Of a DNA stretch of 64,000 bases, positions 7,509-64,000 are shown in pieces (positions within the stretch are counted from its first letter, which is position 1; every line of letters begins with the position of its first letter). A program made the position numbers and the translations under genes. Origin of the DNA: Romboutsia timonensis (GTDB lineage Bacteria > Bacillota > Clostridia > Peptostreptococcales > Peptostreptococcaceae); assembly GCF_900106845.1 (NCBI RefSeq), contig NZ_LT629850.1, forward strand, positions 1,849,478 through 1,913,477, read 5' to 3'. The notes beneath the pieces were generated by a model. The model saw only the letters and a list, made by a program, of their open reading frames with translations. It was not told where the DNA came from and ran no database searches.

Positions 7509-7564
7509 AAAAAAAGATCCCATATAGACAGACACGCTTTTTCTCGTGTCCACCATATAGGATC
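7509..7564 (-). terminator. Intrinsic terminator inside the left end of IS copy 2
   Basis: On the minus strand an imperfect stem of about 20 bp (7564-7545 with 7536-7516) is followed by seven T residues, just before the transposase ribosome binding site. It is equivalent to the hairpin at 9-60. Confidence 0.75.
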
Positions 7565-7571
7565 CATTTTA

Positions 7572-7592
7572 TTACTCCTCACTACTTTTTTA
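7572..7592. terminator. Right half of the split terminator hairpin
   Basis: TTACTC repeat (7572-7577), then the arm TCCTCACTAC (7576-7585) and a T-run. It is the partner of 6096-6105. It lies downstream of nadK, whose terminator it probably was. Confidence 0.8.
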
Positions 7593-7719
7593 TTGACTAA
7601 TATATTATAATCTAACTATGTTATAAACAACTATAAGCAAATAACACTTTTAATAAATATTTTTATCTAAATATAGTCAATTATATATTCTTTGAAAAAC
7701 AATTAAATAAAATTTTAAT

Positions 7720-8520: not shown

Positions 8521-8598
8521 ATTTAATCTTTCCTAACTTTAATAATTGTCATATTTTTATTATATTTTACATTTTATTTAAATTATATTCAATCTTTA

Positions 8599-8675
8599 AA
8601 ATTTGCTTAACTTATGTCGCCAACGTTATATCCTCGTTAACACGTCGGATACATCCGTTGCTTAAAATTCACTAT
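8599..8675. repeat. Dispersed palindromic repeat, copy A (short type)
   Basis: It shares AAAATT..GCTT, ATGTCGCCAACG and TCCGTTGCTTAAAATT with copies at 18103, 24525 and 44150. It is GC-richer than its surroundings and lies between nadK and the protein kinase gene. Confidence 0.65.
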
Positions 8676-8702
8676 GTTCATAAATCTAAACTTTAAAATA
8701 AA

Positions 8703-8740
8703 AAATAGATACATTTAAACAGTTTTATATGTATCTATTT
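8703..8740 (-). terminator. Terminator of the protein kinase gene
   Basis: Stem AAATAGATACAT / ATGTATCTATTT lies just after the stop codon. Confidence 0.7.
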
Positions 8741-8747
8741 GTATTCA

Positions 8748-9701
8748 TTATATTATTAATGTTGTTAGTGCTGAAAGTATAATAATTATAATTGCTGATA
8801 TTAATAATAATTTATTTCTATTTTTTGTAACTTTAGTTTTCTTTTCATATTTATAATTTTGTTCATCTTCTATTAATAATGATTCTTTTATCTCTGCTTT
8901 TTCATACATTATAGAACTTAAATCTAATATAACTTCTCTAAATTCACTATACTTCTCTGTTCTGTTTAAAAGCTTTTTTATTATCTCTATTAATTCTTCA
9001 TTTCCATTTATACCTTTTAAAGCATTAAAATTTATACCTTTGTCTATAAATTTTAACATTTGTTCTTCATCATAACTTTCGCCAAATGGTAATTTTTTAA
9101 ATATACATTCAAATAAAATTAATCCCAATGCAAAAAAGTCACTTTCTGTATCTGTATAGTTAATGCATAGCTGATGTGGGGATAAATATTTTATATTATT
9201 CCCTGACCTTATGTTTACACCATGGTTAGCTTTAGTAACTCCAAAATTTAATATTTTTACATTATACCATTTATCTACTAAAATATTACTTGGATTCAAG
9301 TCTCCATGGTACATCCCATGCTCTTTAGCCGCTTCTAGTCCCTTTAGTATTTGAGTTGCTATTGATATTATTGCTTCTAAGTGAAGGTAATTCCCCTCTA
9401 TTATATTATTTAAACTAATACCCTTTTCATATTCATATATCATATAATACCATATTCCATCTTCTCTATAATCAACACCTACATCAATCATATTTAGTAT
9501 ATAAGGTGAGTTTATCTCTCTTATTATGGTAGATTCATCAATTAGATTTGCTAGAAAGTCTTCACATATATGATTATTATGATTTATTACTTTTAATAAA
9601 ATAGTTTTATTTTCATATAAATCTCTTGCTTTATAGAGTTTATTAAACTCTATATTATCTTCTATATTTATTATAGAGTACCTATTTCCTATAAAGTTCA
9701 A
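8748..9701 (-). CDS. Tail-anchored Ser/Thr protein kinase-like protein with NFG in place of DFG
   Basis: A Hanks-type kinase domain (about 1-270) is followed by a basic linker and one C-terminal membrane segment (about 296-317) with no extracellular domain. The ATP lysine (Lys37, LLKVIN), helix-C glutamate (Glu62) and catalytic loop HGDLNPSN (Asp134, Asn139) are present. The Mg-binding DFG is replaced by NFG (Asn152), and the glycine loop is poorly conserved, so activity may be weak or absent. The start is TTG, just after GGGAGG. Substrates are unknown. Confidence 0.8.
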   Translation of the reverse strand: MNFIGNRYSIINIEDNIEFNKLYKARDLYENKTILLKVINHNNHICEDFLANLIDESTIIREINSPYILNMIDVGVDYREDGIWYYMIYEYEKGISLNNIIEGNYLHLEAIISIATQILKGLEAAKEHGMYHGDLNPSNILVDKWYNVKILNFGVTKANHGVNIRSGNNIKYLSPHQLCINYTDTESDFFALGLILFECIFKKLPFGESYDEEQMLKFIDKGINFNALKGINGNEELIEIIKKLLNRTEKYSEFREVILDLSSIMYEKAEIKESLLIEDEQNYKYEKKTKVTKNRNKLLLISAIIIIILSALTTLII

Positions 9702-9786
9702 ATTCCTCCCTCACTTTTTTACATTTTTTTATTTCAATATAATTATAATATCATTTTTAATATGTTTTTCCAACAAAAACAACAAA

Positions 9787-9822
9787 AAAATATAGCTAAT
9801 ACGAATATCAGCTATATTTTTA
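9787..9822 (-). terminator. Terminator of the VanW-family gene
   Basis: AAAATATAGCT (9787-9797) pairs with AGCTATATTTT (9810-9820); on the minus strand the second arm runs into a T-rich stretch. Confidence 0.75.
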
Positions 9823-11127
9823 TTAATTATTTTTGTTTTTATATACACTATTAGATATATATTGAGTCCTGATTACATTTCCATTTGAATCTCTATATTC
9901 TATATATGTTTTTGCAGCGTCTAATCCTCCTGTTGTATACGGCTCTACTTTTATGCTTATATTTTTCTTATCCGATGCATTTCCATATATTTTAGAAGTT
10001 ATTACACCATTACTTACTGTATTTTTTATATATACTGGATGAGAGTATGGGTTTTTAAATCTAAAATCACTACCACCATCACTAACCATTGCATCTCTTC
10101 CTATAGACACATAACTTGACTTTAATGAGTGATTTCTTCTTGATGTTACATCAAGGCCAGAATATAATACTGAATTAAATAAAGTACTAGATACTTGGCA
10201 CACTCCTCCACCTACATCTTGCTCTAATTTTCCATTTATTATAACAGGAGCATCTTTGTATCCATTTGATTTTGTTCTTTTACCCGTTAGATTATTATAC
10301 GAAAATTCTTCTCCGGGCATTAGTAATACATCACTTGTTGCTTTTGCAGATAGTACTATATTTGTAACTCTATTTGAATCATTTGTTGAAAATTTTGTAC
10401 TAAACTCTGCTAGTAATGTATTTACACTTTTAGCAGCTTCTGTACTTATCTTTGGCTGTTTTATATTTACTTTTAAATCTATAGCTTTATAATCTTTATT
10501 TTTTATAGCATCATAAATAGATTCTTTAGTTGCTGCTATATCTAATTCTTTACCTATAGTTGCACTAGATGCACTAATATTTCCAGAATCAGATATATAT
10601 ACCTTTGCATTTTCCATAGCCACATTTATTGATTCTGATATGCTCTGTATTTTCTCACTTAACTTATTTTCATTGTATAAAGATTTTATCTCTAGATTTT
10701 TAATATTTTTATTAAGGTCGAAAAATCTTTTTATATTTTTAAAATATGAGTCCGTTTTAGTATAATTATAAGCTTCATCTACAACTTCACTAGTATTATA
10801 CTTTAAGTCAATTTCATCTGGTGATATTATATTTGTTTCTCCATCATAATTAAGTTGTATATCACTTGGAGTTATATTTTCATTTATATAGTTAATTGCT
10901 TCTTCTTTCGTCAGATTAGATACATCTATACCTTCTATAAATATGTTTTTAGCTATTGCATTTGTATATATATACTTTTTATTAAAGTAATTAATTGAAA
11001 TTCCTAATACACAAATAATAGCTACTAATCCTATAATCTTATACTTTTTAGCCTTTGATTTTTCACTTTTACCAAAACTTCCATCTAGTGTACTGCTTTG
11101 ACTTGCTCCTATGTTATTTTTGCCCAT
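9823..11127 (-). CDS. VanW-family membrane-anchored cell-wall protein
   Basis: The 434-residue protein has a short cytoplasmic N-terminus, one membrane segment (about 30-48), a peptidoglycan-binding-like region (about 60-240) and a C-terminal VanW domain (about 255-390; MPGEEFSYN, GGGVCQVSSTLFN, RRNHS, SDFRFKNP). VanW proteins occur in some vancomycin clusters, but most clostridial members are stand-alone envelope proteins of unproven function. There is no van gene nearby. The start has GGTGGAG 3-4 nt upstream. Confidence 0.88.
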   Translation of the reverse strand: MGKNNIGASQSSTLDGSFGKSEKSKAKKYKIIGLVAIICVLGISINYFNKKYIYTNAIAKNIFIEGIDVSNLTKEEAINYINENITPSDIQLNYDGETNIISPDEIDLKYNTSEVVDEAYNYTKTDSYFKNIKRFFDLNKNIKNLEIKSLYNENKLSEKIQSISESINVAMENAKVYISDSGNISASSATIGKELDIAATKESIYDAIKNKDYKAIDLKVNIKQPKISTEAAKSVNTLLAEFSTKFSTNDSNRVTNIVLSAKATSDVLLMPGEEFSYNNLTGKRTKSNGYKDAPVIINGKLEQDVGGGVCQVSSTLFNSVLYSGLDVTSRRNHSLKSSYVSIGRDAMVSDGGSDFRFKNPYSHPVYIKNTVSNGVITSKIYGNASDKKNISIKVEPYTTGGLDAAKTYIEYRDSNGNVIRTQYISNSVYKNKNN

Positions 11128-13587: not shown

Positions 13588-16500
13588 TTATAATATATTA
13601 AATTCTACCTTACTTCCTTTTGATGTAGATGTAACTTCAAGTTTTGCATCAATTCTTTCTTTAAGTTCTTCAACATGAGAGATTATACCAACTAACCTTC
13701 CACCTCTTTGTAGTTCAAGTAAACTATCAATTGCATTATCTAAAGACTGAGGATCTAATGTACCAAAACCTTCATCTACAAACATAGTATCAAGTGATAC
13801 CCCTCCTGCATTTGATTGTACTATATCAGAAAGACCTAAAGCTAATGATAGTGATGCTTTAAAACTTTCTCCACCAGATAATGAGCTTACATCCCTTGAA
13901 CTATCTGTATAATTATCATATATTTCAAGCTCTAGACCTTTTTGACCTGCTCCTTTACTCTTAGATGTTTTTCTTATTAATGAGAATCTATCTCCTGTCA
14001 TTTTTTCTAATCTTATATTGGCAGCTTCTATTATATCTTCAAAGTAAGATGCTAATATATATCTTTCAAAGGATATATATGGAGCTTTTTTACCATTAGC
14101 TAAATCTGCCAACTCACCTACCACTTTATATTCTTCTTCTATTTCTTTAAATTCTATATTAAGATTTTCAACATTTTTAAGTATTGTTTTGTTTCCAACT
14201 ATTATTGCATGTAATTCTCTTAATTTACTTTCTAGTTCTTTTTTATTATTTTGTATAGATCTTATTTCTTCATCTATTGTAGTTATATCCATAAATACTA
14301 TATCTTTAGTTTTATTTATTATATCTTCCTGCTTAGCCTTTGTTAATTTAAGCTCTGAGTTATAATTTTCTACTTCTTTTTCTAAAACTTCTACCATTGA
14401 TATCTTTAACTTAGCATTTTCATAATCTTCTATATTATCAAAGCCTTGCTCTTTTATAGCTTCATTAAAGTTAGTTTGATTATTAGCTATTTCTAACTTT
14501 AATTCTTCAATTGATTTATTTATTTCTTTAGATATAGAATTTTCTCCTTCTAGTTTTTTAGCTAGATTTTCATTTTCAAGTCTTAGTTTTGCTAATTTCT
14601 CTTTACTTGTATTAAGTTCCTTAGTCTTAACTTCTATTAACTTATTTAAAGTTTTTACATTAGTTATATTTTCTGGTATTTCTTTTTTATACTCATCTAT
14701 TTTAGTAGTAGTTTGTGTAAGTTCTTTTATATATTCTTTTTCATCCTCTTCTAGCTTAATTAAATTTTGTTCATTTTCACTAATTACAGTTACTATACTA
14801 GATAAATCTTTTTCTACTTTTTCTTTTAAGTTTATACGTTTATTAATTTCGTCTAATTCAATATTAAGCTTATTTTTAGCTGAGTTAATATCTACACCTA
14901 TATTTTTAAGAACAGCAAATGTATCTGCTGAATATGTTAACTCGACATTTAAAGTACCTCTTATTTCACTTAAATAGGTATTTATCTGTTCTTCGTAGCT
15001 AATCCTCTTTGTATTTAACTCTGTGAGTTCTGTAATCTTTTCTTGATTTTGTTTCTCCAACATATCTAAATTATCTTTAGCTATTTTTAGCTCTTCTTTA
15101 GACGGTATTTCTATATCATTTTTTATACTAGCTTTATTTGGATGGTTAGTTGAACCACATACTGGACAAGGTTTATTTTCTTGTAATTGGCTTGCAAGTA
15201 TGCCAGCTTGTTCTTTCTTATATAAATCATCTTTTGTTTCATAATCAGTTTTATTACTCTTATATTTTGCTTCAAAAGCAACATATTCTTTATATTTAGA
15301 TTGATGAACAAGACATGTATTTTTATGATTCTTTATAGTATTTAATATTGTACGTATATCATCTAATATTTTATCTTTACCATCTTTTTGTTTTTCTATC
15401 TCTAATTTTTTAGTTTCTAAACTAGTTATATCTTTTAACTCTAGTTCTTTTTCTTCTTTAGATTTTTTTAATGTTTCAGTTTCTTTTTTATTGTTACTTA
15501 TTTGAAGTTTACTATTTTCTAAATTTTGTTTTAACTCTACTAAGTTTTTATTAAGGTTCTCAAGTTCTAAAATCTTTTCTTCTAGCTTAATAAGATTATT
15601 TATTTCTACACTTAGTTTTTCTCTTTCATTTTCTTTATTTTCTTCTATTTTTAAAAGATTACTTGACTCTTCTTGTTGTAGTTTTAAAGTTTCTATATTT
15701 TTTAAACTTAAATTATAATCTTCTTCTCTTTTAGTTAATTTTTTAGTAGTTTCTATAAGCTTATCTTCTATGTATTTTACTTCTTTTGCATTTTTTCCAT
15801 CTATTATAGCTTTTGCTTTGTTTTTATATTCATCTTCCTTTGATAGAAGTTCTTCTAAAGCTTTTGTAATAATCTCTTTTTCTTTAAGTAAGTTATTATT
15901 AGTTTCTATAATAGCCTTTTCTTGATTTTTAACTTGTAGATTATTGTCTACTTCTTTTCCTTCTTCATTAAGAGTTTTATAAATATTATTATCTCTTTCT
16001 AATAAATCTTTTAACTTTTCTATAACTAAAGGGAAATCCACATATTCGTCTATTACTATATCATGCTCACCTTTTATATTTTTTAAATTAATTTCCATTT
16101 CATGTTTACTTTTAGTTCTATTTTTACTAAGGTTTGCTGCTTTATCTTTAAGCTCTGCTTGTATTTTTTCAAAGTCGTAAGTATTAAATATTTTTCTAAA
16201 TATTCCTTCTCTCTCTACAGAGTCAGCTAATAATAATTTTTTAAATTCACCTTGTGCAAGCATTACAATTTGTTTAAATTGCTCTCTAGTTATACCTAAT
16301 ATTTCTATTATTTTATCAGTAACATTCTTTACCTTAGTTATTACCTTTCCATCTGGTAGGATTAAAGTAGCATCAGCAGATTTTTCTGTATAACCTTCAC
16401 CTCTAGCTTTTTTCTTTTTTTGCTTGGGGACTCTGTTTACTGTATATTTTTCTCCTCTAAGTTCAAATTCTAATTCTACATAAGTTTCTGTGTTATCATC

Positions 16501-16713
16501 AGCAAAGTGACTTCTTAAAGAATCAGTTTCTCTACTTTCTCCACTTGCTTCTCCATATAAAGCATAGCTTATAGCATCAAATATAGTTGTTTTTCCCGCT
16601 CCAGTTTTTCCCGATATAACAAATATATTTCTACCTTTTAGTTCTTCAAAATCTATAACTTGCTTAGATGCATAAGGCCCAAATGCACTTATAGTTAATT
16701 TTATTGGTCTCAT
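13588..16713 (-). CDS. sbcC: SbcC, ATPase subunit of the SbcCD nuclease
   Basis: The 1041-residue SMC/Rad50-like protein works with SbcD to open DNA hairpins and process double-strand ends. Walker A is GKTGAGKTT (about 35-43). Long coiled coils flank the zinc hook KPCPVCGSTNH (about 510-520). The C-terminal lobe has the signature SLSGGESFKASL and Walker B MFVDEGFGTLD. Its ATG overlaps the sbcD stop by one base (TAATG), so the two are translationally coupled. Confidence 0.96.
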   Translation of the reverse strand: MRPIKLTISAFGPYASKQVIDFEELKGRNIFVISGKTGAGKTTIFDAISYALYGEASGESRETDSLRSHFADDNTETYVELEFELRGEKYTVNRVPKQKKKKARGEGYTEKSADATLILPDGKVITKVKNVTDKIIEILGITREQFKQIVMLAQGEFKKLLLADSVEREGIFRKIFNTYDFEKIQAELKDKAANLSKNRTKSKHEMEINLKNIKGEHDIVIDEYVDFPLVIEKLKDLLERDNNIYKTLNEEGKEVDNNLQVKNQEKAIIETNNNLLKEKEIITKALEELLSKEDEYKNKAKAIIDGKNAKEVKYIEDKLIETTKKLTKREEDYNLSLKNIETLKLQQEESSNLLKIEENKENEREKLSVEINNLIKLEEKILELENLNKNLVELKQNLENSKLQISNNKKETETLKKSKEEKELELKDITSLETKKLEIEKQKDGKDKILDDIRTILNTIKNHKNTCLVHQSKYKEYVAFEAKYKSNKTDYETKDDLYKKEQAGILASQLQENKPCPVCGSTNHPNKASIKNDIEIPSKEELKIAKDNLDMLEKQNQEKITELTELNTKRISYEEQINTYLSEIRGTLNVELTYSADTFAVLKNIGVDINSAKNKLNIELDEINKRINLKEKVEKDLSSIVTVISENEQNLIKLEEDEKEYIKELTQTTTKIDEYKKEIPENITNVKTLNKLIEVKTKELNTSKEKLAKLRLENENLAKKLEGENSISKEINKSIEELKLEIANNQTNFNEAIKEQGFDNIEDYENAKLKISMVEVLEKEVENYNSELKLTKAKQEDIINKTKDIVFMDITTIDEEIRSIQNNKKELESKLRELHAIIVGNKTILKNVENLNIEFKEIEEEYKVVGELADLANGKKAPYISFERYILASYFEDIIEAANIRLEKMTGDRFSLIRKTSKSKGAGQKGLELEIYDNYTDSSRDVSSLSGGESFKASLSLALGLSDIVQSNAGGVSLDTMFVDEGFGTLDPQSLDNAIDSLLELQRGGRLVGIISHVEELKERIDAKLEVTSTSKGSKVEFNIL

Positions 16714-17912
16714 TACCTCACCTCCTCTTTAAGTACGTCTTTTATAGTATCTATTAACACATTTTCTTTTTTGTCGGTATAGTCACCGTTTCCATAAGCT
16801 TCATAGAAATCTTTAAATAAATCTATTTTACTTTTCTTTCTAAATTCACCTTTTGCTACAGCACCATCCTCTGATACATTTCTTTTTCTTTCTCTAGTTA
16901 TAAGCATTGTATTTGGATAAACTGCTTTTAATTTTTCCATAGGATTCATAAGTTCCCCATCATCAGTAAGTATCGCTTGTATATAATCTTCTTTTCCTTC
17001 TTCTACGTCTCTACCTTCACATATTAAATCTTCTATATTCCCTTTTATAATTCTTAAATCTCTAAGTGGATTTAATTCCCTTAATTCAATATTTATATCT
17101 TTATCTTTTAAATCTAGTACTACAATACTCTTTTTTTGTTTAACTTCTGAGAATGAGTATTTAAGTAAAGATCCTGAATATCTCATAGTTTCTCTTCCAA
17201 TTTTTTGTCTACCATGTAAATGACCTAATGCCACATAATCAAAATCTTTAAATATATTCCCATATATAAGATCTGTCCCACCTATAGATAATGGTCTTTC
17301 TGATTCTGAAGTTTCAAGTTCTGCTGCTTCGTATTTATGGTCACTTACATCTATTACTTCTTCTCTTTTCATAGTTACATATCCATGACCTATAAGTATA
17401 TTTACCTCATTTTCATTTAAATCTTCTTTTATTTTATCTATAACAGCTATCATTGCATCATTGTGACTTCTTATTTCTTTGTTATCAAGAAGTTTTTTAG
17501 TAAGTGCTGGGTCTTTGTAAGGTACTAAATAGAAGTTTATATTTTTATTATTCTCACATAAAACTACTTTTCTATATAGCTCTTCATCACTACCTGCTAT
17601 GTATAATCCTTGCTTTTCTAGTATTTTACTACCAAAACTTAATCGTTCTCCGCTGTCATGATTACCTGATATCACTAATACAGATACATTTCTATCTATT
17701 ACTAAAGAGCTTAAAGTTTCATTTAGTAATTCTACTGCTTCTACTGGTGGTATAGATCTATCGTATACGTCACCTGCTATCATAAGTACATCTGCATTTT
17801 CTTCATCTATAAGTTCTATTAATTTATTTAAAATGTATTTTTGATCATCTATCATTGAATATTCATTTACTATTTTTCCTATATGCCAATCACTAGTATG
17901 AATAATTTTCAT
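16713..17912 (-). CDS. sbcD: SbcD, nuclease subunit of SbcCD
   Basis: The 399-residue Mre11-type metallophosphoesterase shows the metal motifs HTSDWHIGK, AGDVYDRS, SGNHDS, GHGYV and ALGHLHGRQ, all present. It precedes sbcC with a one-base overlap. The start has GGAGGATG upstream. The pair limits palindrome instability, which is notable because the window holds many large hairpins. Confidence 0.96.
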   Translation of the reverse strand: MKIIHTSDWHIGKIVNEYSMIDDQKYILNKLIELIDEENADVLMIAGDVYDRSIPPVEAVELLNETLSSLVIDRNVSVLVISGNHDSGERLSFGSKILEKQGLYIAGSDEELYRKVVLCENNKNINFYLVPYKDPALTKKLLDNKEIRSHNDAMIAVIDKIKEDLNENEVNILIGHGYVTMKREEVIDVSDHKYEAAELETSESERPLSIGGTDLIYGNIFKDFDYVALGHLHGRQKIGRETMRYSGSLLKYSFSEVKQKKSIVVLDLKDKDINIELRELNPLRDLRIIKGNIEDLICEGRDVEEGKEDYIQAILTDDGELMNPMEKLKAVYPNTMLITRERKRNVSEDGAVAKGEFRKKSKIDLFKDFYEAYGNGDYTDKKENVLIDTIKDVLKEEVR

Positions 17913-52900: not shown

Positions 52901-53743
52901 CTATACAAGTATTCCTAATACTGACCCTAGTATACCTAATACTAATGTTAATCCTATTAACTTATACGTAGTCCACTTTTTCTTTTTTATTAAATAGAAA
53001 ACAAATATTGTGAAAAGTGCTGGTAATAAAGATGGCGCTATTTTATCAAGCATTTCTTGTACAGACACTATTTTTTCTCCACCGTCAGGCATAGATGCTA
53101 CATATTGAAGTCCTACATTTAATTTTACAAAAGATACTGCTAATCCTGATATAACTGTAACACCTATCATACTAGCTATAGATGAAATTTGTGCCATTTT
53201 TTCACTTAAAGTATCTATTATACTTGTTCCTAACTTATATCCATATAAACCTGTAAGTAGTTTTATAGCTAATAATATTAAATTCATTCCTAAGAAAAAT
53301 AACAGTGGTCCAGCTACTAATCCATCTTGAGCTAAACTTGAACCTATTGTTGCTAAAAGTGGTGCTAAACAAAATTGTGCTAATGAATCACCTATACCTG
53401 CTAAAGGCCCCATTAATGCTAATTTAATTGATCTAGCATCTTCTGGTTTACTTCCATTATCTAACATTACTAATTGCATACTAGTTATAAATGGTAAGAA
53501 GTGAGGGTTTGAATTGAAAAACTCAACGTTTGAGCTTAAAGCTTCTTGAAATCCTTCTTCATCATCCTTATATATTTTCTTTAATGCAGGATATAATACA
53601 TTTGCATATCCTAAGCCTTGATAGTTTCCATAGTTAAATCCATTTTGAAGAAAATATGCTCTCAATGATGTTTTTAAATAATCTTTTTTAGTTAAAGCTG
53701 TTTTAGAATTTCTTGTAGATATTGTATTAGATACCATCTTCAA
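52901..53743 (-). CDS. PTS mannose-family EIID component
   Basis: The 280-residue membrane protein has LRAYFLQNGFNYGNYQGLGYANVLYPAL, FNSNPHFLPFITSMQLVM and LMGPLAGIGDSLAQ. The gene overlaps the EIIC gene by 17 bp. Start TTG at 53743 (6 nt after GGAGG) or ATG at 53737. EIIC and EIID form the transmembrane sugar channel. Confidence 0.93.
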   Translation of the reverse strand: MKMVSNTISTRNSKTALTKKDYLKTSLRAYFLQNGFNYGNYQGLGYANVLYPALKKIYKDDEEGFQEALSSNVEFFNSNPHFLPFITSMQLVMLDNGSKPEDARSIKLALMGPLAGIGDSLAQFCLAPLLATIGSSLAQDGLVAGPLLFFLGMNLILLAIKLLTGLYGYKLGTSIIDTLSEKMAQISSIASMIGVTVISGLAVSFVKLNVGLQYVASMPDGGEKIVSVQEMLDKIAPSLLPALFTIFVFYLIKKKKWTTYKLIGLTLVLGILGSVLGILV

Positions 53744-54515
53744 ATATTACCTCCCCATCATTATCATTGGAATCATTATTATTCCCCTTTATGTAATACA
53801 CTAATAAAGCTACTGCTGTTCCTACAAATGCAACTCCCATTACTGGTAATTGTAAATATCCTATACATATATATCCAATTAAAACAAATGGTAATAATTC
53901 TATTTTTGCCATAACAGATAATATCATTGCAAATCCTATTGCTGGTAACATTACACCTGCAACTTTAAATCCATTTATTAACCACTCTGGTATATATGAT
54001 ATAGCTGTTTGTAATCCACTAGTACTCATGGCACCAACAAATCCTATTAAAAATCCTACTAATGCAAATACCCAAACTGTAGCATTAGCACCTATTTTAA
54101 ATTTAGTATAGTTTCTTTCTTTTATACCATTAATTGCATACTGACTCATACCTGCTGTAGCTGTATATGTAGCTGTTATTAAAAATTGGAATGCAACTGC
54201 AAATGGGAATGATAAAGCTAATGCTGAAGCTGGATCTACTCCCTGACCCTTCATTGTAATTGCCATTAATGTACCTATAATACCAGGTCCCATTGGGTTT
54301 GGAGGAACTGTACCCCCTGCACCAACACCAAATCCCATAAATGCTAATTCACCTATAGCTCCCATAGCTAAGGCAGTTGGTATATCACCAAGTATAATAC
54401 CTACCCCTAAAGATAATACTAAACAACGTGCTGAATATATCCCTAATAACATACCAGCTAAACAGAATCCAGTCCATATTCCGATAAGAATACCTTGAGT
54501 TAAAGTAATTTCCAT
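53727..54515 (-). CDS. PTS mannose-family EIIC component
   Basis: The 262-residue membrane protein has several helices and the family stretch GIWTGFCLAGMLLGIYSARCLVLSLGVGIILGDIPTALAMGAIGELAFMGFGVGAGG..., here split between residues 10 and 70. It forms the channel with EIID. The C-terminus is polar. The substrate, unsaturated glucuronyl disaccharide, is inferred from the operon. Confidence 0.93.
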   Translation of the reverse strand: MEITLTQGILIGIWTGFCLAGMLLGIYSARCLVLSLGVGIILGDIPTALAMGAIGELAFMGFGVGAGGTVPPNPMGPGIIGTLMAITMKGQGVDPASALALSFPFAVAFQFLITATYTATAGMSQYAINGIKERNYTKFKIGANATVWVFALVGFLIGFVGAMSTSGLQTAISYIPEWLINGFKVAGVMLPAIGFAMILSVMAKIELLPFVLIGYICIGYLQLPVMGVAFVGTAVALLVYYIKGNNNDSNDNDGEVIFEDGI

Positions 54516-54537
54516 TTATCTCCCCCCTTTTTTTATT

Positions 54538-55035
54538 TTAATTATATATATATTTAGTTATATCAACTTCAAGTGCACCATCATTTCCTGAAGGAGTAGT
54601 TTTAGTATTAAATTTCATATTATGCTTTTCAAGCAACTCTCTTAAAGCAGCTTTATCATTATCACCTAAGAATATAGAACGTGTAACGGCTTGTTTCCCT
54701 GGTGCATTGTGTATATTCCCTATGTTTATTTCATTTACTGGAACCCCACCATCAATAAGCTTTAAAGCATCTTCTGGAGTTTTTACTACTAAAAATATTT
54801 TTTGTTTAGGTGATGCCTTATGAATTAATTCGCAAGTTTTTTCTATTGAGAAAAATCTCATAGCTATTGTTTTTGGAACAACAGTCTTCATTAATGTTTG
54901 TTGTATTGTATCATTACTAGCTTCATCATTAGCTACTATTACCGTATTAACACCTAAAGCATTTAACCACATTTGTCCTTGACCATGTATTAATCTCTCA
55001 TCAATTCTCATCATCTCAATATTTACATTACTCAT
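54538..55035 (-). CDS. PTS mannose-family EIIB component
   Basis: The 165-residue cytoplasmic protein has phospho-His17 in RIDERLIHGQGQ, NDEASND and KQKIFLVVKTPEDALKLIDGG. It transfers phosphate from EIIA to the incoming sugar. Start follows AAGGGGGAG. Confidence 0.94.
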   Translation of the reverse strand: MSNVNIEMMRIDERLIHGQGQMWLNALGVNTVIVANDEASNDTIQQTLMKTVVPKTIAMRFFSIEKTCELIHKASPKQKIFLVVKTPEDALKLIDGGVPVNEINIGNIHNAPGKQAVTRSIFLGDNDKAALRELLEKHNMKFNTKTTPSGNDGALEVDITKYIYN

Positions 55036-55059
55036 TTTTACACTCCCCCTTTATATAAT

Positions 55060-56283
55060 TTACCAATATAATTCCCAATCTTTATAGAATCTCATTAATG
55101 CTTCTAAGTAGAAGTAATCTCCCCATATATTACCTTCATCTACACCTTTACCTGAATGCCAAGAATAAACACCATGATATAAAATCGGTTTACCTTCTTC
55201 AATTTCTTCACTTGTATAATTCTCAATTAAAGATCTAAGTATATTATGCATTGCATATTTATAAACTTCTTTATCTGAATCTACCTCTGGTAAATACTTA
55301 TTCATCTCATGCATTCCACAGACTGCTATAGCTGCAGCAGATGAATCTTTTGAATGACCATCACCATCCTTAAATATTAAATCCCAATAACATACATTAT
55401 CTTCAGGTAATCTATTTAAGAAGTAGTTAGTCATCCCCTTATAAAGGTTAAAACAGCTTTCATTCTTAGTATACTTGTAGTTTAGAGGTATTCCATATAC
55501 TCCCCATGCTTGACCTCTAGCCCATGATGAATCATCATTATATCCTTGTCTAGTTACACCTTTTAAAGGCTCTCCTGTTTCATTATTCATATAGAAAGTG
55601 TGATATGCTGATGCATCATCTCTTATTACATTATTACAAGATGTTACAAAGTGAGTATTAGCTATATCCCTATATTTATTATCTCCTGTAGTTTCACTCG
55701 CCCAATATAAAAGTGGTATATTAAGTAAACAGTCAATTATAAATCTATAGTGATCTTTATGGCCTAACTCTCCCCAAGCTTGAATGAATCCTCCAACTTC
55801 TTGATATCTAGAGATTAATTTATCTGCAGCTTTTATTGCTGCTATTTTAGCATCTAATGAATTTATTATCTTATATCCACTTACACAAGATAATGAATAA
55901 AGAAATCCTAAGTCATGATGATCTAATTCAATATTATTTTCTACTCTATTCTTAAATGATGCTACATTCTTTTCAGCTAACACCTTATATTTATCATCAT
56001 TTGTATATTCATAAGCTAACCATAATAGTCCCGTCCAGAATCCATCTGTCCACTCTATATTTTCGATTATTTCATACTTATTTTGTTTAGTTGCTGATGA
56101 TGGAAATTTATTTTTAAAATATTCCATATTAGCATCTATTTGACATATAGCACCTTCTATAGCTTTTTTAACTTCAGCTTTTGTCAAAAGTTCACTATTT
56201 AGAAATTCTAAAGATTTATTTATATTTTCTACTTCTATTGTCTTTATGTCTTTTAATTTTGCTAAACTTGCTTCAGCTATCAT
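55060..56283 (-). CDS. ugl: Unsaturated glucuronyl hydrolase (GH88)
   Basis: The 407-residue (alpha/alpha)6-barrel enzyme has WTDGFWTGLLWLAYE, HHDLGFLY (first catalytic Asp region), and the signature DDSSWARGQAWGVYG (second Asp). It cleaves the unsaturated glucuronyl residue from disaccharides produced by hyaluronate, chondroitin or heparin lyases. It lies between kduI and the PTS genes; cytoplasmic, so it should act on the imported phosphorylated disaccharide. Confidence 0.94.
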   Translation of the reverse strand: MIAEASLAKLKDIKTIEVENINKSLEFLNSELLTKAEVKKAIEGAICQIDANMEYFKNKFPSSATKQNKYEIIENIEWTDGFWTGLLWLAYEYTNDDKYKVLAEKNVASFKNRVENNIELDHHDLGFLYSLSCVSGYKIINSLDAKIAAIKAADKLISRYQEVGGFIQAWGELGHKDHYRFIIDCLLNIPLLYWASETTGDNKYRDIANTHFVTSCNNVIRDDASAYHTFYMNNETGEPLKGVTRQGYNDDSSWARGQAWGVYGIPLNYKYTKNESCFNLYKGMTNYFLNRLPEDNVCYWDLIFKDGDGHSKDSSAAAIAVCGMHEMNKYLPEVDSDKEVYKYAMHNILRSLIENYTSEEIEEGKPILYHGVYSWHSGKGVDEGNIWGDYFYLEALMRFYKDWELYW

Positions 56284-56304
56284 ATTATCCCCCTCCTTAG
56301 TTAT

Positions 56305-57135
56305 TTATCTTAATGTATCCATAGATATATGATCCAGATCAGTAAATGTTTGGTTTTCTCCACACATTCCCCATATAAATGTATAATTGCTTGTTCCTAC
56401 TCCAGAATGTATTGACCAACTTGGAGAGATTATAGCCTGTTCATTCTTTACTATTAAGTGTCTTGTTTCTGTAGGTTCTCCCATTAAATGTATTACTCTT
56501 GTATCTTCTTCCATATCGAAGTAGAAATAAACTTCCATTCTTCTTTCATGAGTATGGCATGGCATTGTATTCCATGCACTTCCTGGTTCTAATATTGTAA
56601 GTCCCATTAATAACTGGCAACTTTCGCAAACATTTGGATGTACATATTGATATATTGTTCTTTTATTTAAAGTTGAATTGTCTCCCATTTTTACTGGATT
56701 TGCTTTTTCTATTTCTATTTTAACTGTCTTATATTCTTTATGTGCTGGTACTGAGTTTATATAAAATTTTGCAGGATTTTTTGGATTTGATGATTTGAAT
56801 ATGATGTCTTTATTCCCTTTTCCTATGTATAGACCATCTTTATTGTTTAGTGCGGATTCTTCACCATCTATCGAAACTATACCTTCGCCACCAACGTTTA
56901 TAACTCCCATTTCTCTTCTTTCTAAGAAGTAATCAACCCCCATAGATTTACCTGCTTCTAATTTTAAACTTTCATTAACAGGTTTTATTCCTCCAAATAT
57001 TATTCTATCTACATGGCTGTAAGTAAGTTCTACTTTATCATCACTAAAAATTTCTTCTACCATGTAATGCTCTCTTAATTGATTTGTGTCATACTTTTTT
57101 GAATCATTGGGATGATTTGCATATCGATTATTCAT
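56305..57135 (-). CDS. kduI: KduI, 5-dehydro-4-deoxy-D-glucuronate isomerase
   Basis: The 276-residue cupin-type isomerase has zinc ligands in CHTHERRMEVYFYFD and QPVNESLKL-type substrate region (GGIKPVNESLKL). It converts 4-deoxy-L-threo-5-hexosulose uronate to the substrate of KduD. It is the first gene of the operon, with RBS AGGAGG and a sigma-A promoter overlapped by LacI-type boxes. Confidence 0.94.
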   Translation of the reverse strand: MNNRYANHPNDSKKYDTNQLREHYMVEEIFSDDKVELTYSHVDRIIFGGIKPVNESLKLEAGKSMGVDYFLERREMGVINVGGEGIVSIDGEESALNNKDGLYIGKGNKDIIFKSSNPKNPAKFYINSVPAHKEYKTVKIEIEKANPVKMGDNSTLNKRTIYQYVHPNVCESCQLLMGLTILEPGSAWNTMPCHTHERRMEVYFYFDMEEDTRVIHLMGEPTETRHLIVKNEQAIISPSWSIHSGVGTSNYTFIWGMCGENQTFTDLDHISMDTLR

Positions 57136-58841: not shown

Positions 58842-59090
58842 CTATGTATAGTAAATTAATATCATTATTTGAATAAATATGATAAAAGGCAAACCTGTAG
58901 TAAATTGTCTATGCTTAGTCTTATGTCTAAATTGATACATCCCTATAATACTTCCTATAGATCCACCTATAATTGCTATAAAAAAAAGATTTTTTTCAGA
59001 AATTCTATACATATTATTTTTAGCAAAGTATTTATCCAAATACATTGATAGTAATCCCACTATATTTATAAATATTAAATAATAAATCAT
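58842..59090 (-). CDS. DUF1294-family membrane protein
   Basis: The 82-residue protein has two to three helices with the family motif MYLDKYFAKNNMYRISEKNLFFIAIIGGSIGSIIGMYQFRHKTKH, split here around residues 17-60. Function unknown. It follows the 157-aa gene by 9 bp, so the two are probably one operon; the ribosome binding site is weak. Confidence 0.88.
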   Translation of the reverse strand: MIYYLIFINIVGLLSMYLDKYFAKNNMYRISEKNLFFIAIIGGSIGSIIGMYQFRHKTKHRQFTTGLPFIIFIQIMILIYYT

Positions 59091-59099
59091 GTCCGTTAC

Positions 59100-59573
59100 C
59101 TATTTAGCCATAAGTACTATTATCTCTAATAATTGTGTACCTATCTCTCTTCCTTGGTTTTTTATTAATTCTAAATACAATTTTAATTTATCCCATTTTT
59201 CATCTAAATTTAAATCATCATTATTTATATTTTCTATAAGATTAATAACTTCTACTAATTTCTGTTTTTCTAAAATATCTTTATCTTCTATGTACTCTTT
59301 TAAATCTGTAAATTTATCATATATATTTTTTTGTTTTTCCTTTAAAATTAGTTCATCTTTATAGTCCTTTAAATAATTTTGTATATTTTCTATATCTTTT
59401 TTGCTGTAGTTCCAAACTACATCCCTACTTATGTTAGATATAGAATCTATAGTATTTTTATACTTATCGTGAAGCTCTTCTATTGCTATTACAATATCTA
59501 AATAATTATTTTCTTTAAGTACAATTTCACATCTTTTTATATCTAGATCCAATTCATTTAATTTATTTATCAA
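59100..59573 (-). CDS. Coiled-coil hypothetical protein, 157 aa
   Basis: I do not recognise a family. It is nearly all helical, rich in Asp, Glu, Lys, Ile and Leu (NKLNELDLDIKRCEIVLKE; ENIQNYLKDYKDELILKE), soluble, without motif. TTG start 8 nt after AAGGAG. First gene of an operon with the DUF1294 gene. Confidence 0.68.
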   Translation of the reverse strand: MINKLNELDLDIKRCEIVLKENNYLDIVIAIEELHDKYKNTIDSISNISRDVVWNYSKKDIENIQNYLKDYKDELILKEKQKNIYDKFTDLKEYIEDKDILEKQKLVEVINLIENINNDDLNLDEKWDKLKLYLELIKNQGREIGTQLLEIIVLMAK

Positions 59574-59596
59574 AGTCTCATCTCCTTATTATAAAA

Positions 59597-59869
59597 TTGG
59601 TTATTTTAAATATTTTATTATTTAATTATTATACACAAGTTTTATATATTATCCAATTTTATATAATTAAATATCTTCTATCAAGTAAAGCTATTTTAAG
59701 CATAAATATTCTACTTTACATAATATGTTCTCTTTATTTATTAAAAATAATTAATTTATATTCAGTTATCCTAATGGCACTTTTTGCAATATTAATAGCA
59801 TTTTTTCATATTTTATACTCATATATTGCGTGCTACTATATAGATATAAGCAGTAAAACAAACAACTAA
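59597..59869 (+). CDS. Possible small membrane protein, 90 aa, weak start
   Basis: The open frame is strongly hydrophobic with about three membrane helices (SINILLYIICSLYLL; SVILMALFAILIAFF). The only early start is a TTG without a ribosome binding site. It could be a truncated gene. It ends 51 bp before the lyase gene on the same strand. Confidence 0.35.
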   Translation: MVILNILLFNYYTQVLYIIQFYIIKYLLSSKAILSINILLYIICSLYLLKIINLYSVILMALFAILIAFFHILYSYIACYYIDISSKTNN

Positions 59870-59919
59870 TTTTTTAGATAATATATAAAATATTAATTTA
59901 AACTTTGGAGGTTATTAAA

Positions 59920-61125
59920 ATGAAATATAATTTTGATGAAATAATAGATCGTTCAAATAATTATGCAGTTAAATATGATGAAACTAAAGAAAAATTCGGT
60001 AGAGATGATTTAATACCATTATGGATAGCTGATATGGACTTTAAAGCTGCAGACCCTATAATAAATGCCCTTCAAGAAAGAGCAATGCAAGGTATATATG
60101 GATATACTTCTAGACCTATTGAATATTTTGAAGCTATAAAAAAATGGCAGCTTGAAAAAAATAACTGGGAAGTAGATACATCTCTTATGTCTCATGCTTT
60201 AGGAGTCTTACCAATGCTTGCAAACCTAATGCATACATTTTTAGAAAAAGGAGATAAGGTTATAATACAACCACCAGTATTTCATGAATTTAAAAATGTT
60301 ATAGAAGCTTGGGGTGGTGAAGTTGTTACAAATCAACTTATAGAGGATAATGGTAGATACTATATAGATTTTGATGATTTAAGAAATAAAGCAAAGCAAG
60401 GTGCTAAATTTATGATAGTTTGTAATCCTCATAATCCAGTAGGAAGGGTTTGGTCAAAAGAAGAATTAGAAACTATAGCAAATATTTGCATAGAAAATAA
60501 CATAACTATTATATCTGATGAAATTTACTCTGATATAATGTTATGGGGAAATAAACATACTCCAATAGCATCTATAAGTGAAGAAATAAGAAAACATACT
60601 ATAACTTGTACTTCTTCAACTAAAACATTTAACTTAGCTGGACTTCAAGTTGCCACAGTAATATTCCCTAATCTAAATATGAAAAATCAATATGATGCTA
60701 TATTAAAGAAAATAGAAACATATAGAAATAATGCATTTAGTATAGTCGCTAATACAATTGCTTTTACTGAAGGAAAAGAATGGTTTTTAGAAGCTACTAC
60801 TTATATAGAAGAAAATATAAAATATGCTGTAGATTATATAAATAGTAATATTCCTCAAATAAAAGTAAGTATACCTGATAGTACATACTTATTATGGCTA
60901 GATTGTAGAAATTTAAATCTTGATGGAGATGACTTAGTTGACTTCTTTGTTAATAAAGCACGACTTGCACTTAATGATGGTCGTCTATTTGGAAATGGTG
61001 GAGATGGTTATATGAGAATAAATATAGCTTGTCCTAGAAGAATTTTAGAAAAAGCTCTATACCAATTAGAGAATGCAGTTGACAGCTATAATTTTGATAA
61101 ATATGAATTAATTTCGGGTTGTTAA
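59920..61125 (+). CDS. MalY/PatB-family pyridoxal-phosphate cystathionine beta-lyase
   Basis: The 401-residue class I/II aminotransferase-fold enzyme has PLWIADMDF, YGYTSRP, NPHNPVGRVW, SDEIYSDIM and the PLP lysine in TSSTKTFNLAGLQ. The group cleaves C-S bonds of cystathionine or cysteine conjugates. A TTG at 59905 is in frame but overlaps the binding site GGAGG, which is 8 nt before the ATG at 59920. It is monocistronic. Confidence 0.93.
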   Translation: MKYNFDEIIDRSNNYAVKYDETKEKFGRDDLIPLWIADMDFKAADPIINALQERAMQGIYGYTSRPIEYFEAIKKWQLEKNNWEVDTSLMSHALGVLPMLANLMHTFLEKGDKVIIQPPVFHEFKNVIEAWGGEVVTNQLIEDNGRYYIDFDDLRNKAKQGAKFMIVCNPHNPVGRVWSKEELETIANICIENNITIISDEIYSDIMLWGNKHTPIASISEEIRKHTITCTSSTKTFNLAGLQVATVIFPNLNMKNQYDAILKKIETYRNNAFSIVANTIAFTEGKEWFLEATTYIEENIKYAVDYINSNIPQIKVSIPDSTYLLWLDCRNLNLDGDDLVDFFVNKARLALNDGRLFGNGGDGYMRINIACPRRILEKALYQLENAVDSYNFDKYELISGC

Positions 61126-61214: not shown

Positions 61215-61239
61215 AAAAGGGCTATGCATTAGCCCTTTT
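61215..61239. terminator. Bidirectional terminator
   Basis: AAAAGGGCTA / TAGCCCTTTT serves the lyase gene (plus) and the TOPRIM gene (minus). Confidence 0.85.
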
Positions 61240-61255
61240 GTTGATTTTTAACTTT

Positions 61256-62029
61256 TTAATTAAGCTCTAATATATCTATTATAAAGTCATAAAATTTTTT
61301 TATAACAGGGCTATACATTATACTTTCTTCACTTATCCAATCATCATATCGTATTGATATTTGATTGGCGCTTCCTGGTTGAAATATATTTGCTATGCAT
61401 CCTATCTTAACTTTATTCTCACTAGATCTGCTCCAGCTTTCTTTATATTTATCATCAACCCTTTCTAAATATTCATTTACATTATCTAATAAATCACTAT
61501 AAACAATCTTAGCACCTTCAAGTAAAAAGTTTTCTAACGTTCCTTGTGAGTAGTTATCGGGAAAAAAATAATAATACATATTTATAATTTCTCCTCGAAT
61601 CCTACATGAACCACTTAGAAAATCTTTTTTCTTAATAACCATATCTTTGTTATACTTCCTAAATTTTTCATCAAAAGCTTCTTTTGCAGATTTTTGATCA
61701 GCATCAAATATTGCACATACTCCATTTATTTGCTTTAATTCTGACTTGGTCATATTACTAAGGTATAAATCTATATCCCTGATAATATTACCTACTCCAT
61801 TAGCTGATACCATCGCTATGCATAAATTATTTTTTATAAAATATGAAGGCATAGGTATAAATCTATCTAACCTGTTATCTACAAATGGATAAGTTCTTGG
61901 TACTCTACTTCTCCATATTTCTGGAATATCATTTATGTTACTAACTTCTTTAAAGTCATTTATTAATAATATTCTAGCTACACAATTTATATCATGAACG
62001 CCTTCTACAAAAAATAAAAAACTTCTCAT
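61256..62029 (-). CDS. TOPRIM-domain protein (DUF3226-like), partner of the AAA ATPase
   Basis: The 257-residue protein shows the TOPRIM landmarks: FFVEGVHD (Glu9), VSANGVGN (mid Gly) and CAIFDADQKS (Asp109-x-Asp111). TOPRIM-fold nuclease-like proteins paired with AAA ATPases occur in OLD, PARIS and AbiL-type anti-phage systems. Here the gene starts in the ATPase stop (TAATG, one-base overlap), so it is translationally coupled. Nuclease activity and defence role are inferred. Confidence 0.8.
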   Translation of the reverse strand: MRSFLFFVEGVHDINCVARILLINDFKEVSNINDIPEIWRSRVPRTYPFVDNRLDRFIPMPSYFIKNNLCIAMVSANGVGNIIRDIDLYLSNMTKSELKQINGVCAIFDADQKSAKEAFDEKFRKYNKDMVIKKKDFLSGSCRIRGEIINMYYYFFPDNYSQGTLENFLLEGAKIVYSDLLDNVNEYLERVDDKYKESWSRSSENKVKIGCIANIFQPGSANQISIRYDDWISEESIMYSPVIKKFYDFIIDILELN

Positions 62030-63054
62030 TATCTCACATCCTGACCTAGCAAGTTTCTAATATCTTTTAACCTATCACCAGAAAACTTTGTATAGTACGT
62101 TTTATTATTATATACTTCTATCCTAAAACAAGATAATAAGTCTATTTGATTTCCAAGTGAAAGTATAATTCCATCTATAGCTTCTAAACTATGAGTCGTA
62201 CATATTAATTGAACCTTATACTCCTTACAAATCTTTATAATACTGTTAAACACTTTATTTATATGGTTTTTGTGTATTGCACTTTCTATTTCATCAACTA
62301 GCAGTATCCCACCTTTTGCACTTATCATTGCTGTTGCAAGTGTGAATATCTTTTTAATACTATCTCCAAAACTAAATAAAGGTGTAGTACCATATACATT
62401 ATGATTTATATATATATAACTTCTACCTGTATTAAATTTTTTTACTAGTTTAAAATCTACTACGTCTGGATCAAATATATTAAGTAAATTTATTATATTT
62501 TCTTTATCTCTATCATTTACATTTTCTAAGGTACTTTCTATTAAGTCACTTCTATAATAATCATATGGAGTAACATATACTATTTTTATAATGTCATAGT
62601 CATTAAGGTATTTGATATCTTTATTTTCCTCTATAGATATATTTTTATCTATGACTGTTTCATCTTCTACCTTCACATTAATATTACCTAGAAATGTATT
62701 ATCAGTGTCATTATTTATGTCAATATCTCTTACTATATTTCCATTTATGTTAACCTCTCTAGTTAATCCTTTTATAGTTGATTCAATTTTTATACTTTTG
62801 TTTATATCTTGATCTCTTGGGAATATGTCTAAGAATAGTTCAAAACTTGAAGGGTACGCAGAACTTCTTTTTGATACATTATTTAATATACTTTTTATGC
62901 TATCTTCATTTCCGAGTATTGACATAGCTTCAAGTAATGAGGTTTTTCCGCTATTATTCGCTCCTACTATTATATTTATATGAGATAGGTCCTTTAATTC
63001 TAAGTCTTCTATACTTTTAAAATGATGTATTTTTAGATAAGTTAAATAGCTCAT
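62029..63054 (-). CDS. AAA-family (AAA15/21, OLD-like) ATPase
   Basis: The 341-residue SMC/ABC-like ATPase has Walker A GANNSGKTS (Gly31-Ser39), a signature-like FSFGDSIKK (about 228-235), Walker B ILLVDEIE (Asp254, Glu255) and H-loop CTTHSLEA (His288). There is no long coiled coil, so it is an OLD/AAA15-type rather than an SMC. First gene of the pair with the TOPRIM protein. GAAGTGAT is 3 nt upstream of the ATG. Confidence 0.88.
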   Translation of the reverse strand: MSYLTYLKIHHFKSIEDLELKDLSHINIIVGANNSGKTSLLEAMSILGNEDSIKSILNNVSKRSSAYPSSFELFLDIFPRDQDINKSIKIESTIKGLTREVNINGNIVRDIDINNDTDNTFLGNINVKVEDETVIDKNISIEENKDIKYLNDYDIIKIVYVTPYDYYRSDLIESTLENVNDRDKENIINLLNIFDPDVVDFKLVKKFNTGRSYIYINHNVYGTTPLFSFGDSIKKIFTLATAMISAKGGILLVDEIESAIHKNHINKVFNSIIKICKEYKVQLICTTHSLEAIDGIILSLGNQIDLLSCFRIEVYNNKTYYTKFSGDRLKDIRNLLGQDVR

Positions 63055-63064
63055 ATTATCACTT

Positions 63065-63101
63065 CTTTCTAATTTATATAATAATTATACAAATTAGAAA
63101 G
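63065..63101. promoter_or_regulatory. Inverted repeat just upstream of the ATPase start codon
   Basis: CTTTCTAATTT (63065-63075) and AAATTAGAAAG (63091-63101) are perfect complements separated by 15 nt. It starts 11 nt upstream of the ATG, partly over the ribosome binding region. A candidate operator or mRNA hairpin. Confidence 0.6.
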
Positions 63102-63123
63102 AAATAATATAACATCTTTATAA

Positions 63124-63666
63124 TTAATTATTAAATTCTTCTGACGACAAATCTTCTCTATTTAATAAGTTTTTAAATAGAGATACTATAATTTTTATTG
63201 CTAATATTATTATGAAAATTAAAGTTATACCAGTTAAAGCACCTAATGAATCTATAAATACATCCTTTATACTTCCTGATCTTCCTGGTACAGATAGTTG
63301 CCTGTATTCATCATAACAAGCATACATTATAGAAAGTAAAAGCGCTATTGATGATGATAGTATAAGCTTTTTAGAAAATAAATATATAAATAATAATAAA
63401 GATATTCCAATTAATGCATATATACTGAAATGTGCCATCTTTCTAACAATATAACTTTTACTTCCAAATCCTTTTAGTTTTTCATATATCTTGGTCTGAA
63501 TTTTTATAAGCTTTTCATCTTGTAATGTAACTTTATCTCTTATTTTATCTATAAATCTTACGACTAACTGTGATTGACTTCCTGATACTTGTGCATCCTG
63601 ACTAGAAAAATAATACATTCCACCTATGCTACACACAACTAACATAAACACTAGAAATTTCTTCAT
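63124..63666 (-). CDS. VanZ-family membrane protein
   Basis: The protein of about 180 residues has an N-terminal helix, YYFSSQDAQVSGSQS, RKMAHFSIYALIG, YACYDEYRQLSVPGRSGSIKDVFIDSLGALTG, the last being the family signature (here split at 105-140), and four helices in all. The role is in the cell envelope; teicoplanin resistance is known only for the type member. AAAGG precedes the ATG at 63666, so the TTG at 63687 is not used. Confidence 0.9.
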   Translation of the reverse strand: MKKFLVFMLVVCSIGGMYYFSSQDAQVSGSQSQLVVRFIDKIRDKVTLQDEKLIKIQTKIYEKLKGFGSKSYIVRKMAHFSIYALIGISLLLFIYLFSKKLILSSSIALLLSIMYACYDEYRQLSVPGRSGSIKDVFIDSLGALTGITLIFIIILAIKIIVSLFKNLLNREDLSSEEFNN

Positions 63667-63799
63667 TTTATCAATCCTTTTACTCAATTTTCTACTTTAT
63701 AGCTAATTAAATCTTGATATTTATAAAACTTTTCTATAATCATTAAGTTTATTATTATCTAATTATACCATATTTATTTTAAAATTAGCTAATAATAGG

Positions 63800-63829
63800 G
63801 GTATGACATTATATCGTTAATGTTATACC
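63800..63829. other. Hairpin between the partial gene and vanZ-like gene
   Basis: GGTATGACATT pairs with AATGTTATACC with one mismatch. It is followed by TTTTTCTTTTT on the plus strand, which has no upstream gene, so it is uncertain as a terminator. Confidence 0.45.
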
Positions 63830-63838
63830 TTTTTCTTT

Positions 63839-64000
63839 TTATGATTTATCAACTCTAAACAAATTATCATAAGTCTTTAAGAAATTACTTGCCAAGTAAT
63901 CAACCTTTTCTTCCCATCTTTTATCTTCTTCCTCATCTGGACAGTACATTATCTGGATAGCATCAACAGATAAACCATTGTAATACATAGAATCTTCTTT
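63839..64000 (-). CDS. Partial hypothetical gene (C-terminal 53 residues)
   Basis: An open frame enters from the right window edge and ends at TAA 63839-63841. The visible part is KEDSMYYNGLSVDAIQIMYC, an acidic stretch PDEEEDKRWEEK and a final NLFRVDKS. I do not recognise it. It is coding by composition and open frame, but its start lies outside the window. Confidence 0.6.
   Translation of the reverse strand, partial: KEDSMYYNGLSVDAIQIMYCPDEEEDKRWEEKVDYLASNFLKTYDNLFRVDKS

Follow-up and report, generated by a model that had tools for sequence, protein, structure and literature searches.

The window, the whole stretch of 64,000 nucleotides of Romboutsia timonensis that was analysed, carries on its minus strand two adjoining genes, for an ATPase and a TOPRIM protein. 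The ATPase gene (62029..63054) encodes 341 residues of the ABC/SMC-head type (AAA_21/AAA_15), assigned from its open reading frame, Pfam, the PADLOC entry PDC-M38A and a structural model. It is followed by the gene of a 257-residue, nuclease-like TOPRIM protein (61256..62029; DUF3226), assigned from the same kinds of evidence, with PDC-M38B as PADLOC entry, and from an alignment. The stop and start codons overlap in the sequence TAATG (62027..62031, minus strand), in which base 62029 is common to both reading frames. An earlier note on this DNA had described such a coupling of an ATPase to a DUF3226-like TOPRIM protein with Glu9, Asp109 and Asp111; both reading frames, the shared base and the three residues were found as described, the residues being invariant in the 15-row family alignment. 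The neighbours of the pair, by Pfam, are a VanZ-like gene and a convergent aminotransferase gene, and a scan placed a terminator-like hairpin (61215..61239, plus strand) between the latter and the TOPRIM gene.

In what follows, G000 is the window's genome and g1 its genus, with G000, G001, G002 and G003 as g1 genomes. The two genes overlap in all 16 family loci compared; the overlap is 1 base long in 12 of them and 4 bases long in the other 4, lengths that rest on mechanical ORF starts. When 11 loci from other groups are added to these 16, a DUF3226 or PDC-M38B gene directly follows the ATPase gene in 24 of the 27; this count includes the partner in G320, whose Pfam DUF3226 match (1.4e-5) is under the cut-off, and the three loci without a DUF3226 partner (G209, G225 and G123) belong to one genus. 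Gene order and overlap of this kind would also suit a toxin-antitoxin pair, with the TOPRIM protein as toxin and the ATPase as antitoxin, serving addiction or a stress response without phage sensing. The accessible sections of PMC10440598 describe AAA proteins that neutralise TOPRIM_OLD toxins from Clostridium algidicarnis and Streptococcus agalactiae, whose TOPRIM types differ from the present one, and that were validated as such pairs in toxicity assays; a third AAA pair described there, AarT, gave no phage hit when screened in E. coli. In PARIS, however, deletion of ariA was not toxic, according to the text available of PMC9122126, so the layout need not mean addiction, and we regard a toxin-antitoxin function as unlikely.

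Three loci, in three genomes of one genus (L099, L100 and L101), hold a PDC-M38A-like ATPase gene without DUF3226, followed in the same order by genes of about 180, 185 and 532 aa. Elsewhere in the window, an SbcCD-like pair at 13588-17912 consists of a 1041-aa AAA_23 protein and a metallophosphatase of 399 aa with SbcD_C, whose reading frames share one base. Genes of a sorbose-type PTS (EIIC, EIIB), glycosyl hydrolase family 88 and the KduI family lie together at 53727-57135, a set which we take to fit uronate or glycosaminoglycan use; they cluster with no ORF of 15 other stretches, those of G001 and G002 included.

Sequence and predicted structure of the two proteins

The ATPase is matched by the Pfam models AAA_21 (4.3e-22) and AAA_15 (1.5e-13), and has a Walker A motif (GANNSGKT), a Walker B motif (ILLVDE) and a TTHS switch. 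Its PADLOC match to PDC-M38A (5.5e-74) spans the full length, residues 1-341 aligning on 1-366 of 367; the match to the AbiLi model is weaker (1.2e-36 over residues 7-330) and that to the AriA model far weaker (5.9e-23). The structural model (pLDDT 82.2) gave Z scores of 18-20, up to 20.3, with the heads of Rad50, SMC, PtuA and GajA, and the protein is accordingly modelled as a head of the SMC/Rad50/PtuA/GajA type. Such a head, together with a match to the RecF model TIGR00611 (4.1e-15, yet with 55.8 bits against a cut-off of 172), would also agree with a lineage-specific DNA-maintenance pair, in which a RecF/Rad50-like ATPase and a TOPRIM nuclease would act in repair or on structured DNA and not in defence. 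In the distant ATPases of g15 and g5 (L063, L064 and L065, from G050, G015 and G016) the Walker A motif reads GDNNSKKT, with lysine for its last glycine.

The TOPRIM protein matches Pfam DUF3226 (1.3e-11; 45.2 bits, cut-off 27) and no other Pfam family at E up to 1, and in PADLOC only PDC-M38B models match at that same limit (8.5e-11, 40 bits, residues 82-250). Here and for the ATPase, PDC-M38 matches were judged by E-value, in place of PADLOC's own score and coverage limits. Searches of PHROGs and NCBIfam with the window's TOPRIM protein returned nothing useful. Over 23 aligned rows the invariant residues, apart from M1, are E9, G10, G78, D109, P157, G163, E166 and P218, while D13, L21, D111, L165, K206 and W231 are at least 90% conserved; with phage relatives added, E9, G10, L21, G78, D109, G163, L165 and E166 are still invariant. 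The alignment points to a candidate site formed by E9, D13, D109, D111, E166 (with T164) and K206.

In class 2 OLD nucleases, as set out in the accessible parts of two reports (PMC6755086, PMC7049728), metal A is assigned to E400, D455 and D457, and metal B to E404, T506 and E508, with K562 in addition. The residue order of the window protein fits this scheme (E9, D109 and D111; D13, T164 and E166; K206), the two sets being paired by motif order and place rather than by superposed coordinates. T164 is not kept across the wider TOPRIM family; the OLD-type elements, metal A (E, D, D), metal B (E/D, E) and a basic residue, are all present in the alignment.

The TOPRIM model (pLDDT 83.5) was built from a 15-row alignment; in it, E166 begins the first helix past the TOPRIM core and K206 is in a later helix. 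Its best PDB match is PH0156 (2p62; Z 15.9, 220 aligned, rmsd 3.9, 16% identity), which is also matched by the TOPRIM profile (3.5e-8). Four class 2 OLD entries (C-terminal regions) come next, with Z of 8.0-8.6, and since this is only 1.2 above the unrelated folds, which reach at most 6.8, these matches count mainly because the residues agree. AriB is absent from the structural matches listed for the model, which rules nothing out. Judged from the model, the protein resembles PH0156 and, less clearly, class 2 OLD nucleases, and is predicted to be a nuclease.

The palindrome upstream of the ATPase gene

A palindrome at 63057..63109, with two 26-nt arms that are 88% complementary and 1 nt between them, extends from the -10 element of the predicted promoter as far as the ribosome-binding site of the ATPase gene. 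The region considered in the earlier note, which ended at 63101, covers most of it, and it was not mentioned there. The promoter prediction (TTAATA-17-TATATT, the second hexamer being preceded by TG; 63106..63134, minus strand) is weak, the region having 21 such matches against 25.0 in shuffles. With a transcription start some 7 nt beyond the predicted -10, the outer left arm would be untranscribed in the window, and much of the pairing with the ribosome-binding site would consequently be lost from the transcript.

With up to three mismatches allowed, the palindrome sequence has a single occurrence in each of G000, G001 and G002, and none in G033 or in G003 (83% complete). The palindrome of G001 has 26-nt arms with one mismatch, and that of G033, from another genus, has 30-nt arms with none and takes in the A and T of the start codon. 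As RNA the leaders are predicted to fold strongly, with z values of -6.6 (G000), -9.5 (G001), -7.2 (G002) and -12.6 (G033). The upstream repeats of the other g10 genomes shown are shorter or poorer, and those of g5 have arms of 12-13 nt and a longer loop. No strong stem was seen upstream of the ATPase gene in g16, g18, g20 and g15, and the palindrome is therefore not general to the family.

Nine palindromes of the window score at least 17: six are near gene 3' ends only, two are unplaced, and the remaining one, in the ATPase leader, is at a 5' start and also near the VanZ 3' end. Across 15 other loci, 26 of the 32 palindromes with such scores are near 3' ends and three are at 5' starts, namely those of the ATPase leaders of G001 and G033 and of a GntR-type gene of G001 (typed via its G000 homologue); the palindrome of the G002 ATPase leader, with a score of 14, is below the limit of 17. 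In the 20-kb stretch L051, an AT-rich palindrome with 25-nt arms and 3 nt between them lies just before a GntR-family regulator gene (L051:18114-18166), where it might be an autoregulated operator.

The palindrome of the ATPase leader is unlikely to be a plain terminator of the VanZ-like gene; it lies 15-67 nt past the VanZ stop, but on the strand that is transcribed the stem is not followed by a T run, and no terminator was listed at this place by the scan. The operator of a global regulator was rejected for the exact palindrome sequence, given its single place in each of the three genomes. Covariation, weak with three sequences, amounted to one pair changed on both sides, a result reached by 149 of 500 shuffles. 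An RNA hairpin and a DNA operator are both compatible with these data, and we favour neither. In a quite improbable scenario the pair would bring its own switch: its proteins would bind or cut the palindrome, as DNA operator or leader hairpin, so that the nuclease or the ATPase stays on the leader; infection would draw it off, and expression would rise. Were this true, the leader, besides the protein complex, would be part of the sensor.

Distribution and genomic setting of the pair

The named relatives are Peptostreptococcaceae, including Romboutsia sedimentorum. The TOPRIM query matched 17 of 71 family genomes, with none of the eight in genus g4, and the ATPase query 31 of the 71 at E up to 0.001. 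We divided the latter into 18 strong (1.8e-38 or better) and 13 weak matches (8.9e-7 to 8.8e-4), the weak ones being probably other ATPases. The 18 strong genomes are the 17 with the TOPRIM match plus G063, which has a more distant kind of TOPRIM, and in g1 the ATPase is present in three of the four genomes. Class-wide draws gave 5/393 for alignment A1, 10/393 for DUF3226 (5 over the cut-off) and 12/393 for PDC-M38A at 1e-15, and a phylum-wide draw gave 4/398 for PDC-M38A at 1e-25, the window's own genome being included in these counts. By these counts the family is sparse.

In the congener G003 the flanks are joined and the pair is missing. Positions 6828-9015 of its contig C34 correspond to 58847-61094 of the window, and 9305-10190 to 63117-64000, with 289 bases at the junction in place of the window's 2022, and neither gene was found elsewhere in this genome (83% complete). 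Gain in the other congeners is as likely an origin of this state as loss in G003. The pair is accessory, not universal. The earlier note had set universally conserved housekeeping genes against its own reading, and we rejected universal housekeeping as the main reading because the TOPRIM gene is missing in 54 of the 71 family genomes and from the same site of a congener. These absences, which take in all eight g4 genomes and a congener with the flanks in place, also speak against the DNA-maintenance pair, whereas the single location and purifying selection in three g1 genomes are what such a pair would show.

Where present, the pair is under purifying selection. Among G000, G001 and G002, three congeners only, the ATPase gene has dN/dS values of 0.155-0.210 and the TOPRIM gene values of 0.071-0.192; seven flanking genes span 0.027 to 0.410. 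None of the strong ATPase matches and none of the 17 TOPRIM matches has an internal stop, the G055 ATPase being split over two contigs. The intact frames, dN/dS well under 1 and the kept active-site residues argue against a decaying former defence module, for which one could cite the absence from G003, though gain elsewhere is as likely, and the lysine in the Walker A motif of the G050, G015 and G016 ATPases; we consider decay very improbable.

On an rpoB tree of 22 rows, with one long branch (G038) and with no rpoB match from G016 and G023, possession of the close pair needs three changes and is no more clustered than shuffles (500/500 as low); G052, without the pair, is placed among genomes that have it. 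Since three changes are no fewer than with shuffled labels, losses or transfers across the family are likely. The g1 genomes show the same branching in the rpoB tree and in a tree of the pair. The latter, with 15 rows (leaving out G029 and G055 at contig ends and the distant G063), holds g1, g18 and g20 each together, and not g10 under the drawn rooting. The distant g5 pair (L065; 28-33% identity to the window pair) and the g10 pairs (L059-L062) lie near the same four-gene cluster, which from sequence reads as mutS, mutL, miaA and hfq; the location may reflect either a shared old site or chance.

No defence gene was found in the flanks of the window pair, in line with the earlier note: none of the eight proteins searched, of 22 other ORFs in L051, has a PADLOC match at 1e-8. 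All three g1 genomes with the pair carry it at the same location. Several relatives have defence genes nearby. The G063 pair (M38B 338.5 bits) belongs to a locus with brxA, brxB, brxC and pglZ, in which it stands after pglX and before further genes; from its gene content we read this locus as type 1 BREX. In G419 the pair is followed by PycC, PycTM and PycC (Pycsar). G729 has a PDC-M14B protein two genes upstream and G258 a PDC-S07 protein four genes upstream; in G154 a protein similar to mad3 is encoded four genes upstream, and two genes downstream there is a serine recombinase; and in g18 a helicase similar to GajB (2.3e-16) lies at a distance of two genes. The neighbours scanned gave no defence match in G714 (four proteins), G766 (two), G320 (one) and G092 (one, in Pfam only). 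The scan compared 20 chosen neighbours and part of the BREX locus with PADLOC, and is a list of cases, not an enrichment against a matched control.

At least 33 loci of IMG/VR matched the ATPase alignment, and 13 of the listed loci had a TOPRIM-profile match at E up to 0.01. The closest viral TOPRIM among the matches listed is L156, with 102 bits. In L160 the pair lies beside portal and terminase genes (PDC-M38A 1062 bits, PDC-M38B 421.5 bits); we take L160 to be a P2-like prophage, with the pair near the old/tin position of P2. No close relative was found on plasmids or phages by tblastn, nor in IMG/VR with alignment A1, and nothing useful came from an IMG/VR scan with the TOPRIM of L096 or an E. 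coli search with L160.

The distant relatives in a BREX locus, beside Pycsar and in the P2-like prophage support the earlier note's view of a defence-type pair. They count likewise against DNA maintenance, which the lack of a defence match in the eight flanking proteins would favour; taking all of this together, we hold a maintenance role to be rather unlikely. At 30%, 25% and 23% ATPase identity to the window pair, these relatives may nevertheless differ from it in function.

Relation to known systems and proposed function

On its model matches the pair corresponds to the PADLOC-DB candidate PDC-M38, already catalogued: the ATPase matches PDC-M38A in full and the adjoining TOPRIM protein matches PDC-M38B. 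The TOPRIM protein is far from the PDC-M38B models, however: it scores 40 bits, where the BREX member reaches 338.5 and the member in the P2-like prophage 421.5. Because PADLOC-DB lists PDC-M38, the pair is not the separate, unrecorded type that the earlier note had thought possible, and OLD-type ABC ATPase and TOPRIM pairs are a described class, as stated in the available text of PMC12839542. No paper was found for the names DUF3226 and PDC-M38 in the open-licence literature searched by these names, and no test of defence by the pair in the literature searched by family name.

The difference from PARIS and AbiL that had been noted earlier holds for both. Like PARIS, the pair has separate genes for an ABC ATPase and a TOPRIM effector and its ATPase matches the AriA model, if far more weakly than PDC-M38A, but its TOPRIM protein is DUF3226 and not DUF4435 as in AriB, and its ATPase has 341 residues compared with 464 in the solved AriA; membership of PARIS was rejected for want of a DUF4435 match. 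With AbiL it shares the two-gene layout, and its ATPase matches AbiLi more weakly than PDC-M38A. Unlike AbiL, its TOPRIM protein has no RloB or AbiLii match at E up to 1 in Pfam and PADLOC, libraries that presumably contain models of both, and membership of AbiL was rejected on this TOPRIM type. AbiLii is homologous to RloB, according to the accessible sections of PMC10440598.

Class 2 OLD and Gabija GajA have in common with the window pair a TOPRIM domain followed by a helical part and an ATPase of similar fold (Z 18.5 to GajA), whereas in those proteins ATPase and TOPRIM are in one chain and in the window they are two. Gabija differs further in its UvrD-like helicase, which is not found beside the window pair, next to its VanZ-like and aminotransferase neighbours. 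PH0156 of Pyrococcus horikoshii, although the best structural match, has only 16% identity to the window's TOPRIM protein, and its entry is titled hypothetical protein.

The pair is a plausible defence system, catalogued as a candidate. Because related pairs sit in phage-defence loci, it probably belongs to a known kind of anti-phage system, as a member that has been little studied. In PARIS, according to the portion available of PMC12409363, the TOPRIM protein AriB is a two-metal tRNase that stays bound to a hexamer of the ATPase and is let go upon a trigger. By analogy with PARIS, AbiL and OLD, a sensor-effector logic is most likely, and we lean towards the view that the two genes form a module of the abortive-infection type (PDC-M38), in which the ATPase would hold the TOPRIM nuclease inactive until a phage trigger appears. 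The ABC ATPase, probably oligomeric, would bind the TOPRIM protein and keep it inactive; a trigger made by the phage would act on the ATPase, and the TOPRIM protein would be freed or activated. The freed protein, a putative two-metal nuclease of the OLD type, would then cut DNA or tRNA/RNA and stop the infection at the cell's expense.

Several observations weigh against defence. The fixed place in three g1 genomes is unusual for defence genes. None of the eight flanking proteins searched has a PADLOC defence match, and the BREX, Pycsar and prophage settings are single cases. No close relative was found on plasmids or phages, and clustering on the rpoB tree does not exceed that of shuffled labels.

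In the catalogue PDC-M38 has only candidate status. A natural comparison is offered by the close group within one Gram-positive family, together with the congener whose flanks lack the pair, and the OLD-like active site points to residues for mutation. If active, the pair would add another effector type to the class of ABC ATPase and TOPRIM systems, and would let one ask whether the substrate of DUF3226 proteins is DNA, like that of OLD, or tRNA, like that of AriB.
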